The notes below the pieces were generated by a model. That model was not told the DNA's origin and made no database searches. It was given only the letters and a program-made list of their open reading frames with translations. A stretch of 54,555 nt of DNA from positions 1 through 54,555 of the forward strand of contig CANLJX010000004.1 in the NCBI GenBank assembly GCA_947491545.1. Reading direction: 5' to 3'. Below, piece after piece: positions 31,470 to 35,117 of this stretch. Source of the DNA: Deltaproteobacteria bacterium. Lineage in GTDB: Bacteria > Bdellovibrionota_C > UBA2361 > OMII01. Made by a program: the position numbers and the translations under genes. Every line of letters begins with the position of its first letter. Position 1 is the stretch's first letter.

Positions 31470-32789
31470 TCAGTGAGTTGAGCCGAGAATTGAGGCTGCG
31501 ACGTGCTGAGCACGCTCGCGCAGCTCCCTAACAGCGGTAATCTCCCACAGCACCTCCTTCTGAAGTGGCCCCACCACAGCGAAATTGGGTCGGTGCGGAA
31601 CCCCTTCGGTGTCGAGACCAAGCGCTAGCTGGCCTGGTCGGATCAGCTGCTGAGCAACGAGGCTCGCCACCAGGGGATGGTCGATCCGACGAATGTCGCC
31701 CTCTGGCCCAGCACACATGAAGCCTGCGTCGAAGCGGAGCCGCTCGGCTTCTCCGCCACAGCCCCGCAGCGTGACAACAGCTTCACGGGCTGATACCTCG
31801 GACACCTTGCCGGCCCGGATCGTCAACCGCCCTGCTGCTTGCAGCTCGCGGATGGCCTGCAGGTGCTCGTGCGGGATGCGGTGCCGATGAATCTCCCAGA
31901 AGGGGCGCAGGTGCCGGAGAAAAGCCCGTTGCTCAGTCAGAGAGAGGTTGGTCCACATCTGCTGGATCTTTGGCCGCATGGCGTCGAACACGGGCTGCGA
32001 CGAGCCGCACGCGCGCGATGCTTTGCGAATCGTCTTGAGCAGCGCAAAGGCCGTGCCAGGGTTCTCCCAGGACGGGGGAAGCGAGGCGCTGGGAAAAGAT
32101 GCTGGGTCTTCGTGCGAGAGAGGGAAGCGCCCGTTACGAGAGACAACCGAGTAGTGACCCTTAAAGCCGCGCCCCTCGCTCTCCATGATCACGTCGACTG
32201 CAGTGAGCGAGCTCCCGAGGATAAAAAGCTTGCGCAGCTGATCGAGGTCTCGGTAGCTCTGCGGGTTAAAAGGCTCTCGTAGGGCGCCTTTGGTTCCTAC
32301 ATCGCCAACACCACGACGTAAAATGTTCCCGATCGCGAGCACAACGCTGGCAGCCTCTAGTTGCTCCCCGCTCGCAAGCAGCAGGGCAAAGGATGAGCCA
32401 TCCGGTCGCTGTGTTACCTCAACCACCTCGTCCGTCTTGAGAGTCAAGCGCTGAGGCTCTCGCTGCACCGCTTCAGAGACCAGCTCCTGCAGGTAGAGCC
32501 CGTACTGCTGCCGGGAGATGAAGCTCTCGCCTGAAACAGTTGGCTCCCCCTTTTGTAGCCAATGAAGGAAGCCTTCCGGCTCCTGCGGAAAAGCCCCCAT
32601 CGCCTTAGCGCGCACGTTGAGCTTGAAGCGGTGGCTCGGGACTGTGTAGGCAAGACCGGGACCAAACGTCCCGCGCGGGTCGAAAAGCACCACGCGCAGA
32701 TCGTCTGGGGCATTTGGCTGACGAAGGATATTAAGAGCCGTCAGCGAGCCGCTAAAGCCGGCTCCTATGATGGCGATTGTGTGCGGCAT
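31470..32789 (-). CDS. FAD/NAD(P)-binding protein (NAD_binding_9-like)
   Basis: A 439-residue cytoplasmic protein beginning with a dinucleotide-binding GXGXXG motif (AIIGAGFSGSLTALNIL) and the FDPRGTFGPGLAYTV segment. A second nucleotide-binding region follows (ASVVLAIGNIL, LFILGSSLTAVDVIMES). This matches the family of FAD-NAD(P)-binding proteins related to hydroxylases and uncharacterised oxidoreductases. A reaction cannot be assigned. It lies about 100 bases upstream of the methyltransferase on the same strand, and a shared transcript is possible. Confidence 0.8.
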   Translation of the reverse strand: MPHTIAIIGAGFSGSLTALNILRQPNAPDDLRVVLFDPRGTFGPGLAYTVPSHRFKLNVRAKAMGAFPQEPEGFLHWLQKGEPTVSGESFISRQQYGLYLQELVSEAVQREPQRLTLKTDEVVEVTQRPDGSSFALLLASGEQLEAASVVLAIGNILRRGVGDVGTKGALREPFNPQSYRDLDQLRKLFILGSSLTAVDVIMESEGRGFKGHYSVVSRNGRFPLSHEDPASFPSASLPPSWENPGTAFALLKTIRKASRACGSSQPVFDAMRPKIQQMWTNLSLTEQRAFLRHLRPFWEIHRHRIPHEHLQAIRELQAAGRLTIRAGKVSEVSAREAVVTLRGCGGEAERLRFDAGFMCAGPEGDIRRIDHPLVASLVAQQLIRPGQLALGLDTEGVPHRPNFAVVGPLQKEVLWEITAVRELRERAQHVAASILGSTH

Positions 32790-32925
32790 GGCGAGACCTT
32801 AGCACCCTGAAGGTGGGTGAAAAAGGGGATAGAGGTGCTCTGCAGAAAACACGTGGAGTCTCAAAGCAGATTGTAAAGGGGCATAGCATTCCTCATCCTA
32901 ATCCTTCTCTTTCTCGTGCAGCTGC

Positions 32926-32953
32926 ACCGACTCCTGATCATAATCGAGTCGGT
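32926..32953. repeat. ACCGACTC/GAGTCGGT inverted repeat
   Basis: A perfect 8-bp inverted repeat with a 12-base centre, about 140 bases upstream of the FAD/NAD(P)-binding protein start. It could be an operator or a terminator stem, but no T-run follows. Confidence 0.45.
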
Positions 32954-33136
32954 AGGAGTAGTTGTTATGCCGGTCAATCCTGCCCGGTGCCGTGCCCGGG
33001 TAAGGTGTGCGCAGCATGTGCCGCACTAACCGGGAGCGGCCACGGTAACGGGTCCGGTTCCGGCTGCGGCTCCGCAGCGCTCAGCGGAACGTGCACATTC
33101 ACGTTGGGGGCTGGTATGGGCAGAAGGGGGAGTTTC

Positions 33137-33210
33137 ACAAAGAGAGCGGCGAGGACCGAGAGAGGGGGATTTATTCCCCACCCCCTCTCTGTTCTCGCTG
33201 CTCTCTTTGT
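33137..33210. repeat. ACAAAGAG palindromic repeat, copy 5
   Basis: The left arm is ACAAAGAGAGCGGCGAGG and the right arm CTGTTCTCGCTGCTCTCTTTGT, around a centre GAGAGGGGGATTTATTCCCC. Confidence 0.8.
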
Positions 33211-33233
33211 TCAAATGATTGGTTGCATATGCT

Positions 33234-33279
33234 CCCGTTCCCGTTCCCGTTCCCGTTCCCGTTCCCGTTCCCGTTCCCG
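33234..33279. repeat. CCCGTT hexanucleotide microsatellite (7 perfect units)
   Basis: Seven perfect CCCGTT units (33234-33275) are followed by a partial CCCG. The complementary strand therefore reads GGGAAC repeated, with eight GGG runs separated by three bases. That satisfies a strong G-quadruplex pattern. The length may vary between strains by slippage. Confidence 0.9.
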
Positions 33280-33323
33280 AGCGCGAGGATGGATGTGTGT
33301 GGGGGAGCAGAAGGGGGAGTTTT

Positions 33324-33390
33324 ACAAAGAGAGCGGCGAGGCCGGAGAGAGGGGGGATTTATTTCCCACCCGTCGCTGTTCTCTTTTTTC
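33324..33390. repeat. ACAAAGAG palindromic repeat, copy 6 (degenerate right arm)
   Basis: The left arm is intact (ACAAAGAGAGCGGCGAGG). The right arm is shortened to CGTCGCTGTTCTCTTTTTTC, so the palindrome no longer closes fully. Confidence 0.75.
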
Positions 33391-33566
33391 AAATAACTGG
33401 TCGGATATGTTCCCGTTCCCGGGCAAGAAGTGTTGCGGCGAGTGTTCCACCAACCGGGAGCGGCCACGGCACCGGTTCCGGCTGCGGCTCCGCAGCGCTT
33501 AGCGGAACTACTTGTGTACGTAAACGTGAACGCACCCGAAATAGGGGTCATTTGGACTGCGCAGAC

Positions 33567-33622
33567 GAGGACGAGGAATCCAGTGCAAGTGCAGGAGAAG
33601 GAGGACGAGCAGGGGAAGGATT
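33567..33622. repeat. GTGCAAGTGCAGGAG intergenic repeat, copy A
   Basis: The segment around CCAGTGCAAGTGCAGGAGAA matches 50717-50770 with scattered differences, including flanking AGGA units and the following AGGGGAA. Further similarity (GACACGTGTTCTAC versus GACATGTTTTCTAC) continues downstream. Function is unknown. Confidence 0.65.
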
Positions 33623-33711
33623 GGGAAGAGAGCGGCGGGCTATTTAGCCTCGGTCGGGAGGACACGTGTTCTACTTGGCATGTCCGTTACCCTTTTCGCT
33701 GGGTCACGGCA

Positions 33712-34326
33712 TCACAGCTCAGCGTGGTAGCACCCACTCCTCGTCGCTCGTTCAGTTGCCTCACCGTAATTCGAAAAGAAGGTCTCGCCTTCGCCAAAGA
33801 CACGCATGGATCGCAGGGGAGGGGAGTAGCAGTGCACGGTCACGAGATCCTCGCCGCTGCTAGAGTAGTTCGCCACGAGGTGGATGTCGTTGTCTGAGCT
33901 GACGGTGACCTCCCCCGAAGAGACTGCATGGCTGCCTGAGGGGATCAGGGGGCCCATCCCAGAAGCCGTAAATCCTATCTCGATAGCCTCCCCACGCATC
34001 ACGTATACTCCGCAGGTCGAGCCGGCGTGGTTGTGGATCGGGGTGCGCTGTCCTGGTCGCCAGCAGAGCAGGAGCACGTCGACGAAGCTGTTTGAGAAAA
34101 TCCGGTTGCGGCAGTAGGATTCGGCATCGAATCGCTCGAAGGTGGCGAGCTCGCTGGTGCATTTAGAGAGGGAGGCGAGTAGCTCTCGAACTTCTCTCTC
34201 AGAGAGGGGGCTGGCCAGCTCGTGCAGCGTTCGTAATGACCCGAGAAGTCTTCGGGGGGTGTCCGCACGCTCGTCCGAGCAAAGGTGCTGGGTAATCTGC
34301 TGTGAGAGGGCTGCTGAGTTCCGCAT
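33712..34326 (-). CDS. cysteine dioxygenase (cupin), type I
   Basis: The product is 204 residues from the ATG at 34326. The cupin motif PIHNHAGSTCGVYVM supplies two iron ligands (His98, His100), and DIHLVAN supplies the third (His149). VHCYSPP carries the catalytic Tyr (Tyr167), with the preceding His165. A Cys (Cys105) sits five residues after the second His, the same spacing as Cys93 in mammalian enzymes, which forms a Cys-Tyr crosslink; many bacterial homologues have Gly there. The enzyme oxidises cysteine to cysteine sulfinate. It is divergent from an Rrf2 regulator. No clear ribosome-binding site precedes the start. The frame remains open to 34431. Confidence 0.88.
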   Translation of the reverse strand: MRNSAALSQQITQHLCSDERADTPRRLLGSLRTLHELASPLSEREVRELLASLSKCTSELATFERFDAESYCRNRIFSNSFVDVLLLCWRPGQRTPIHNHAGSTCGVYVMRGEAIEIGFTASGMGPLIPSGSHAVSSGEVTVSSDNDIHLVANYSSSGEDLVTVHCYSPPLRSMRVFGEGETFFSNYGEATERATRSGCYHAEL

Positions 34327-34342
34327 ACCGAGTCGTAGGAGA

Positions 34343-34372
34343 TGTTTACTTAGTTTATCGGGTTTGTAAACA
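34343..34372. promoter_or_regulatory. TGTTTAC/GTAAACA palindrome between CDO and Rrf2 genes
   Basis: A perfect 7-bp inverted repeat separated by 16 bases fills the 46-bp gap between the divergent starts and ends one base before the Rrf2 ATG. Its position fits an operator controlling both genes, probably bound by the Rrf2 protein itself. This is inference from position and symmetry. Confidence 0.55.
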
Positions 34373-34813
34373 ATGAAACTTACCAACAAGTCTGAGTATG
34401 CGCTCTTGGCCCTAACAGAGTTGGCTCGCAACTACGGCAAGGGGCTGGTTTCTGGGGATGATCTCGCCGAGCGCCAGGGGGTGCCGAAGCGCTTCCTCCA
34501 GCAGATCCTCTTCGGACTCAAGCGTGCTGGGTACGTTCGATCAGTGAAAGGGCAGGATGGGGGATACGAGCTCTCCAAGGACCCCTCCGCAGTTACGGTT
34601 GCAGAGATCGTTCGATTCTTCGAGGGGCCTCTGGCTCCCACGACCTCGGTGAGCAAAAACTTCTATGAGCCGAGCCCAATCGAGCGCGAGAAGGGGCTGA
34701 TGGGACTCTTTGCGCGTATTCGCAACGAGGTGGCCAGTATTCTTGAGGCGACTACGTTGGCGGAGGTTAGCGGCGTTCGCCGCAGCTCTGGCAGTCGATC
34801 TAAGCGACGGTAG
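34373..34813 (+). CDS. Rrf2 family transcriptional regulator without cysteines
   Basis: A 146-residue winged-helix protein. The start MKLTNKSEYALLALTELA, the helix-turn-helix region VPKRFLQQILFGLKRAGYVRSVKGQDGGYEL and the VTVAEIVRFFEGPL segment are standard Rrf2 features. The Fe-S-ligating cysteines of IscR, NsrR and RsrR are absent, and there are no cysteines at all. That fits CymR-like members, which control cysteine metabolism. The divergent cysteine dioxygenase makes a cysteine-sensing role plausible. The C terminus is basic (SGSRSKRR). No good ribosome-binding site is seen, because the operator-like palindrome abuts the ATG. Confidence 0.9.
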   Translation: MKLTNKSEYALLALTELARNYGKGLVSGDDLAERQGVPKRFLQQILFGLKRAGYVRSVKGQDGGYELSKDPSAVTVAEIVRFFEGPLAPTTSVSKNFYEPSPIEREKGLMGLFARIRNEVASILEATTLAEVSGVRRSSGSRSKRR

Positions 34814-34875
34814 CGAGAAAGTCGCGAAAGGAAGGGGCTCCTTTGTTTACGCGATTTGCGCGAAGACATTTATTT

Positions 34876-34944
34876 ACAACGAGAGCGGCGAGGGGAAGCC
34901 CCTTGTTTCTACCCATCTCTCGTTGTCCTCGCTGAACTCTTTGT
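34876..34944. repeat. ACAAAGAG palindromic repeat, copy 7
   Basis: The left arm reads ACAACGAGAGCGGCGAGG (one change from consensus). The inner hairpin is GGGGAAGCCCC and the right arm is CCTCGCTGAACTCTTTGTG. Confidence 0.8.
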
Positions 34945-35023
34945 GCAATTCCTTCTGTTGCTATCTGGCGAAAGAAGGGGGCTGGTACCTGTATGTGCGC
35001 GATTTGTGTGAGGACATTAATTA

Positions 35024-35102
35024 ACAAAGAGAGCGGCGAGAGCGGTGAGGGGAAGCCCCTTGTTCCTGCCCATCTCCGGTTGCCCTCGCTGAACTCTTTG
35101 TG
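35024..35102. repeat. ACAAAGAG palindromic repeat, copy 8
   Basis: The left arm is ACAAAGAGAGCGGCGAGAGC, the inner hairpin GGGGAAGCCCC and the right arm CCCTCGCTGAACTCTTTGTG. The flanks match those of copy 7, showing a tandem duplication. Confidence 0.8.
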
Positions 35103-35117
35103 CAATTACTAATGTCG

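Follow-up and report, generated by a model that had tools for sequence, protein, structure and literature searches.

The window, by which we mean the whole stretch of 54,555 nucleotides that was analysed, carries a gene for a type I cysteine dioxygenase (CDO), a divergent gene for an Rrf2-family regulator and, downstream of cdo, a gene for a flavoprotein of family PF13454. We predict that these three genes form a self-contained module for the oxidation of cysteine sulfur, in which a local Rrf2 repressor would control a cdo-flavoprotein operon, and we give this reading a probability of about 0.6. The putative Rrf2-CDO-flavoprotein unit, which is conserved, is the unexpected part of the locus.

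The locus

The window is contig C4 of a draft genome of 3,026,882 bases (3.03 Mb) in 206 contigs, which is 84% complete. Its phylum is represented in the collection by 45 genomes, all within one class. The features discussed below are the following, with positions in the window and the evidence in brackets.

31470 to 32789, minus strand: FAD/NAD(P)-binding flavoprotein of family PF13454, 439 amino acids, downstream of cdo (PF13454 at 119.1 bits, synteny, fold and profile matches)
32790 to 33711, no strand: repeat-rich spacer of 922 bp between cdo and the flavoprotein gene (sequence; the gaps in relatives are far shorter)
33712 to 34326, minus strand: cdo, type I cysteine dioxygenase, 204 amino acids, ATG start at 34326 (PF05995, alignment to CDO chains, census alignment, AlphaFold model)
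33826 to 33828, minus strand: codon of Tyr167, at the rat Tyr157 position (numbered from the ATG at 34326)
34012 to 34014, minus strand: codon of Cys105, at the rat Cys93 position (numbered from the same ATG)
34343 to 34372, no strand: palindrome TGTTTAC-n16-GTAAACA (left arm changed in genomes G002 and G011)
34348 to 34371, plus strand: conserved footprint ACTTAGTTTATCGGGTTTGTAAAC, a likely Rrf2 operator (conservation in congeners; ends 1 nt 5' of the rrf2 start codon)
34373 to 34813, plus strand: rrf2, Rrf2-family regulator, 146 amino acids, free of cysteine (PF02082 at 113.7 bits)

An earlier note on this DNA had assigned all of 33712-34372 to a cysteine dioxygenase. The identity of the gene holds (69.3 bits for the CDO_I profile PF05995, with a cut-off of 23), and the upper bound does not, as the ATG is at 34326 and the remaining 46 bp (34327-34372) are the spacer between cdo and rrf2, through which the cdo frame merely stays open. 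Across this spacer cdo is divergent from the cysteine-free rrf2, just as the note had described. The cdo-flavoprotein spacer and the one at 34814-35117 contain many diverged repeats, among them elements of the AAAGAGAGCGGCGAG type in either orientation and an array of the hexamer TTCCCG.

Conservation of the three genes

The divergent Rrf2-CDO arrangement followed by the flavoprotein gene is present in all five genomes that have the CDO-Rrf2 pair (G000, G002, G006, G011 and G013). G013 belongs to another family, and its CDO and Rrf2 are 42% and 43% identical to those of the window. Among 12 congeneric genomes, which are drafts of 60-97% completeness, cdo and this Rrf2 are found in the same four (G000, G002, G006 and G011); at the same threshold G003 has only a 33% Rrf2 relative, and flavoprotein homologues without cdo occur in G009 and G003. 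The gap between cdo and the flavoprotein gene is 48 bp in G006 (contig OMIG01000035.1), 46 bp in G002 and 25 bp in G011 (contig JAFMJG010000030.1), and in G013 the two genes overlap by 8 nt. Because 922 bp part them in the window, co-transcription is less certain there than in the relatives.

The wider distribution was taken from a census of 83 distinct sequences of the CDO family, the query among them. They come from 109 loci, nine of which had no CDO match; the query stands in for two copies of the window's sequence among the 84 distinct matches. Sampling was not random, and relatives of the query are over-represented. Within the flanks around the census CDOs, mostly 1.5 kb per side and 0.6 kb for 17 loci, 76 of the 83 rows have no match to the flavoprotein profile at E <= 1e-4, the seven positives being the five module genomes, G673 and G699. 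At the same threshold a match to the Rrf2 profile occurs only in the five module genomes, and two Vibrio stretches (L042 and L043) have neither.

The association of CDO with the flavoprotein takes several forms. In G673, from a draw on the phylum of a Cupriavidus genome, a single open frame of 751 codons encodes a CDO domain of the Cys type together with a PF13454 domain (L053:1051-3303). In the actinomycete Streptantibioticus cattleyicolor the genes for a CDO and a PF13454 protein overlap by 4 nt, and G699 has a CDO-like gene, with Phe at position 157, that is followed 25 nt on by a PF13454 gene. G025 carries another flavoprotein gene, and divergent from it, where the contig ends, is the N-terminal part of an Rrf2. 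A possible CDO-flavoprotein fusion in S. meliloti was rejected, as the long tblastn match falls in a PF13454-type reading frame and no CDO was seen.

Two other neighbourhoods may be mentioned. In G009, where no CDO was found, a small Cupin_2 protein adjoins the PF13454 flavoprotein gene (L086:862-1389). The CDO gene of G025 is followed by a gene for a PF03601 membrane protein (L003:2015-3013), possibly a sulfur-anion exporter; we take PF03601 to be the YeiH type.

The cysteine dioxygenase

In the alignment with mammalian CDO chains and in the census alignment, window residues R73, H98, H100, C105, H149, T163, H165 and Y167 correspond to rat R60, H86, H88, C93, H140, S153, H155 and Y157. The earlier note had placed Cys105 at the spacing of mammalian Cys93 and Tyr167 at that of Tyr157, and alignment with the mouse and human chains bears this out. 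HNHAGSTC in the window has the same His-to-Cys spacing as HDHTDSHC in mouse, and Tyr167 aligns with Tyr157 in YSPP; the alignment with bacterial and animal CDOs that the note had proposed likewise places both the Cys and the Tyr of the crosslink position. The iron-binding trio H98, H100 and H149 is invariant across 42 aligned Arg-type sequences. His165 and Tyr167 of the Ser-His-Tyr network (153/155/157) are present, and Thr163 stands for Ser153, as Thr does in other Arg-type rows. Taken as a whole, the window enzyme shares with mammalian CDO1 (rat, mouse and human) the 3-His iron site, Arg60, His155, Tyr157 and Cys93 at equal spacing. It differs in being only 28% identical to the mouse segment, in the Thr for Ser153, in the DNA-binding regulator gene that adjoins cdo and in that its crosslink is only predicted.

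The AlphaFold model of the CDO has a mean pLDDT of 87.8, and the ten-residue blocks with C105 and Y167 average 97 and 98. Its best structural match is the Bacillus subtilis CDO 4qm9 (Z 21.1, rmsd 2.0 over 152 residues), followed by ergothioneine dioxygenase (Z 19.7) and rat CDO entries (Z 18.2-18.5, rmsd 2.4-2.7 over 161-164 residues). The B. subtilis enzyme (YubC; 3eqe, 4qm9) is thus a bacterial CDO and the nearest in structure, whereas it presumably has Gly at the Cys93 position and hence no crosslink. A crosslink in its G82C variant is reportedly the subject of one published paper.

The fold family includes activities on other thiols, so one could argue that the window enzyme acts on 3-mercaptopropionate, mercaptosuccinate or ergothioneine and not on cysteine. 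The match to ergothioneine dioxygenase, which exceeds that to rat CDO (Z 19.7 and about 18.4), and the Thr163 in place of Ser153 would fit such a role. However, R73 occupies the position of Arg60, which makes the window CDO Arg-type, and in Arg-type CDOs this residue holds the cysteine carboxylate. The Gln-type enzymes are set apart in a clade of their own (support 100/100), and the best PDB matches by sequence are CDOs (mammalian CDO, E about 6e-14; B. subtilis CDO, 2.8e-13), with ergothioneine dioxygenase far behind (2.6e-7). A different substrate is therefore very unlikely. Judged by its sequence, the window protein is a regular Arg-type, cysteine-using enzyme with crosslink-capable residues, and cysteine oxidation is its predicted activity.

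The crosslink between Cys105 and Tyr167 is possible in that the residues, fold and spacing fit, and because of the fold match of the predicted model the two residues would be expected to lie close together, as in the mammalian enzyme. The Cys could also be present with no crosslink being formed, catalysis proceeding as in the Gly-type bacterial enzymes or in the mammalian enzyme before maturation. This finds some backing in passages of PMC4019311 and PMC10966181, according to which the crosslink boosts activity, is not essential and needs hundreds of turnovers to form. Against it, Cys is found in 34 of the 46 Arg-type sequences of the census and Tyr157 in each of those 34, although this pairing is weak evidence because Tyr157 is near universal (82 of 83). 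In addition, PDB entry 4wvz is titled as an artificially crosslinked G95C variant of a bacterial thiol dioxygenase, so a Cys at that position can be enough for the crosslink. We consider an enzyme that stays uncrosslinked to be the lesser possibility, if a substantial one.

Distribution of the cysteine at the crosslink position

The earlier note described the Cys as a eukaryotic-type ligand position and stated that bacterial homologues often have Gly. The second statement is right as far as it goes: the Cys93 column of the census (n=83) contains Gly 47 times, Cys 34 times and Ala twice, and so Cys is common as well. The description as eukaryotic did not survive. All 34 rows with Cys are Arg60-type with Tyr157, and none of the 34 Gln-type rows has it; seven of the Cys rows have a loop shorter by one residue, and the Cys column there depends on the alignment. 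Cys was found in eight of eight places in the draw from the window's phylum besides the query, in four of seven places from the phylum of the Bacteroidia genome (296 genomes), in 16 of 48 from that of the Cupriavidus genome (398 genomes; some places are below the family cut-off) and in two of two, both from the same genus, in a further phylum (all 132 genomes in the collection). Two Vibrio plasmid sequences, among five of 13 plasmid matches that were examined, have it as well.

A tree of 78 census rows, from which five distant rows were dropped, has three changes of the Cys state. In a second tree, with 41 Arg-type rows (five dropped) and one mouse row, the mouse CDO joins the four Cys sequences from the draw on the phylum of the Bacteroidia genome with support of 99/86, and this group sits inside a clade of 20 (100/98). 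The mouse row thus nests among bacterial Cys-type enzymes, a placement that is provisional because there is a single eukaryotic row and both trees carry long-branch warnings. An import of the Cys from eukaryotes was rejected on the census counts and both trees. The CDO of S. cattleyicolor, which is outside the census, is Gln-type yet Cys-bearing (YRQH with HDHVSWC), and so Gln-type enzymes do not always have Gly.

In the passages available, a 2013 review (PMC4019311) states that "many", not all, bacterial CDOs are without the crosslink cysteine, PMC8050391 describes eukaryotic CDOs as crosslinked and the Tyr of bacterial forms as unmodified, and PMC10966181 treats the crosslink as a feature of mammalian CDO, with an unmodified Tyr in a bacterial MDO. 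Variation of this Cys among bacterial CDOs is already in print; a statement of its extent was not found in the parts of the literature that were covered.

The Rrf2 regulator and its probable site

The regulator scores 113.7 bits against the Rrf2 profile (cut-off 30), and with no cysteine in its 146 residues it has none of the cluster-ligand cysteines of the IscR/NsrR-type Fe-S proteins. By sequence the closest solved chains are 4cic and, second, CymR (2y75, E 2.1e-20), and the best NCBIfam equivalog is also CymR (NF047409). The score of 87.9 bits is, however, below the equivalog cut-off of 195, and CymR has a regulon whereas the window type of Rrf2 has one perfect site per genome. Direct sensing of cysteine by this protein, as the earlier note suggested, is a guess.

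The title of a paper cited in PMC3519770 has CymR acting in complex with CysK. In the parts of PMC3519770 that were available, the B. cereus cysteine dioxygenase and cymR are both lowered in a plcRa mutant, among other cysteine-metabolism genes, and CymR motifs are named 5' of other genes, not of the dioxygenase. In the portion of PMC2577008 that was searched, cysteine dioxygenase appears only as a term in the reference list.

The note had also proposed that a TGTTTAC/GTAAACA palindrome filling the gap would be the operator. The palindrome is present, and at 34343-34372 it is the only match to TGTTTACN{10,22}GTAAACA in the 3.03 Mb assembly. When the 46-bp gap is shuffled by mononucleotides, however, 2.2% of the shuffles contain a 7-bp inverted repeat, which makes the palindrome alone weak evidence, and the left arm is altered to TGTTCAC in G002 and lost in G011 (TTTGCAC). 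As an operator, the palindrome was rejected because its left arm is not conserved in congeners.

What is invariant in the four congeners is the element ACTTAGTTTA-n5-TTTGTAAAC at 34348-34371, beside the rrf2 start codon. It contains inverted half-sites, GTTTA (34353-34357) and TAAAC (34367-34371) with n9 between, that are kept in all four. The 30 bases at -30 to -1 of rrf2 share 22-29 pairwise among these congeners and those at -60 to -31 share 7-10, while the 4-fold sites of rrf2 share 16-37%, that is, the silent sites are randomised. The footprint is well beyond chance since neither flanks nor 4-fold sites are conserved, and this 24-bp element appears to be under strong selection.

The element could act in the translation or as a promoter of rrf2 instead of being an operator. 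Its constant distance of 1 nt from the start codon in four congeners would be expected of such an element. A scan for a sigma-70-like promoter found none, although the promoter type of the host may differ. In G025, a genome of another family, a 48% identical Rrf2 is divergent from a flavoprotein gene with no cdo between, and the spacer matches the element at 17 of 24 positions (reached in 3 of 2000 shuffles), but this block ends 10 nt 5' of the start codon. That shift, in an Rrf2-flavoprotein spacer, and the inverted half-sites in all four congeners argue for an operator, and a translation or promoter element is unlikely. The G013 spacer matches weakly, at 14 of 24 (287 of 2000 shuffles reach it) or, with the core alone, at 13 of 19 (48 of 2000). 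In Acidisoma the Rrf2-flavoprotein spacer agreed at best at 10 of 19 positions with the core and at 13 of 24 with the form found in G025. When six spacers, four of them from close relatives, were aligned, their dyad symmetry was modest, with at best 40 of 78 pairs.

The core occurs as one perfect copy in each of the four module-bearing genomes and, within three mismatches, in none of the other eight congeners; in its own genome the site is single at up to three mismatches. These counts bear on whether the Rrf2 might regulate redox or sulfur functions in general, with cdo as one target among many and the divergent site there only for autoregulation. Rrf2 regulators often run regulons, IscR and CymR being examples, and G011 has a second site with two mismatches (L114:1501-1524), just 5' of a reading frame with no Pfam match. 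We rejected this second site as evidence for a regulon, as it is not above the rate of the reversed control pattern, which gave three matches in the 12 genomes. A degenerate regulon motif could escape the patterns used. Given the single site and the presence or absence together of Rrf2 and cdo in the congeners, a general regulator is quite unlikely. We infer that this Rrf2 would be a local, autoregulating repressor, and we find the case for the regulator and its conserved site as a putative local switch convincing. The control of cdo by the divergent Rrf2 that the earlier note proposed finds good support in the conserved divergence, the co-occurrence and the footprint, over a different element from the one that it named.

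The flavoprotein

The model of the flavoprotein has a pLDDT of 84.9, and its best fold match is the aspartate N-hydroxylase FzmM (8cp2 and 8cp5; Z 26.1, rmsd 3.7 over 427 residues), followed by bacillithiol disulfide reductase and N-hydroxylases with Z of 24.6 and below. A profile of eight flavoprotein homologues searched against the PDB also finds FzmM first (E 3.4e-6). Single-sequence searches of the PDB gave no match at E <= 1 for the window protein and did not find FzmM for the G025 homologue, and a profile of the helical region, that of the Arg cluster 266/276/409/412/416/577, did not reach FzmM.

The passages of PMC10404684 that were available give Asn62 of FzmM as catalytic and Arg13 as binding the aspartate substrate. 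Asn62 corresponds to Asn58 of the window flavoprotein and Arg13 to Ser13, both invariant in the eight homologues, and FzmM Trp51 is Tyr48. The window protein therefore resembles FzmM in its fold, its profile and the catalytic Asn, and differs in being 19% identical, in its length (439 vs about 600 residues), in Ser for Arg13 and in Tyr for Trp51. It seems to be built like a class B monooxygenase of this kind, but we do not file it as an aspartate N-hydroxylase. Within its Pfam family the resemblance is to FAD-NAD(P)-binding proteins, and the NCBIfam model of that name (NF007381) matches four of the eight homologues; what differs is the association with CDO and sulfonate-type genes observed here. 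We take the PF13454 proteins to be YdhS/COG4529. No function for COG4529, YdhS or PF13454 was found among the papers listed, at the level of titles and the openings of abstracts.

The G673 fusion matches 606 plasmid records, and in the 16 annotated contexts that were viewed no CDO is listed beside the flavoprotein gene. In 10 of the 16, as a raw count, sulfate- or sulfonate-type genes are found at a distance of up to about 6 kb from the flavoprotein gene. The 10 are from the following organisms.

Aureimonas
Azospirillum oryzae (counted for a TauD/TfdA dioxygenase beside an ABC transporter)
Nostoc sp.
Paracoccus sp. AK26 (counted for msuE with an LLM-class oxidoreductase and an ABC transporter)
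Hartmannibacter
Acidisoma
Streptomyces coelicoflavus
Sphingobium
Shinella
Nostoc edaphicum

The contexts of Methylomagnum, S. meliloti, Sphingomonas, P. alcaliphilus, Novosphingobium and A. ramasamyi show no genes of this kind. The first six contexts were chosen partly by names in the match list (four of six positive) and the other ten blind to their neighbours (six of ten positive), two of the ten being congeners of earlier records. An Rrf2 gene directly adjoins the flavoprotein gene in three of the 16 and lies within 4 kb in four. The Rrf2 proteins near PF13454 genes in Acidisoma (L128:4288-4776), P. alcaliphilus (L129:4455-4895), Shinella (L134:6405-6869) and S. meliloti (L124:396-851) have four or five cysteines. 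In Nostoc (L122:6019-8304) a PF13454 flavoprotein is fused to a metallo-beta-lactamase-fold domain, beside ssu sulfonate genes.

A proposed pathway

In the self-contained module that we favour, an Rrf2 dimer would bind the 24-bp element near both divergent promoters and would repress its own gene and the cdo-flavoprotein operon. The repression would be relieved by a sulfur metabolite, which might be cysteine or a precursor, or by a partner protein, as with CymR. CDO would then oxidise L-cysteine to L-cysteine sulfinate, its Cys105-Tyr167 thioether maturing with turnover, and the flavoprotein would use NAD(P)H for the further oxidation of cysteine sulfinate or a relative of it. L-cysteine sulfinate is an isostere of L-aspartate, and by this analogy an action of the flavoprotein on the CDO product is suggested, no more.

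One may go a step further and propose that the PF13454 flavoproteins are a sulfur branch of the class B monooxygenases, and that here cysteine sulfinate would be the substrate of an aspartate-N-hydroxylase-like enzyme. Two coupled steps, S-dioxygenation by CDO and NAD(P)H-dependent N- or S-oxygenation by the flavoprotein, would then be carried out in some cases by one fused protein and be under a dedicated cysteine-free Rrf2 repressor. We offer this as speculation that, in its full extent, is probably wrong.

In conclusion, many of the Arg-type bacterial CDOs in the census, from at least four phyla, have the residues for the crosslink, and because these residues are common in bacteria, with the mouse row nested among them, naturally crosslinked bacterial CDOs may exist. 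The CDO-flavoprotein pair is accompanied by what we predict to be a simple Rrf2 switch with one site. The partner flavoprotein, which is conserved and in one case fused, would provide a testable function for a widespread and poorly assigned protein family.
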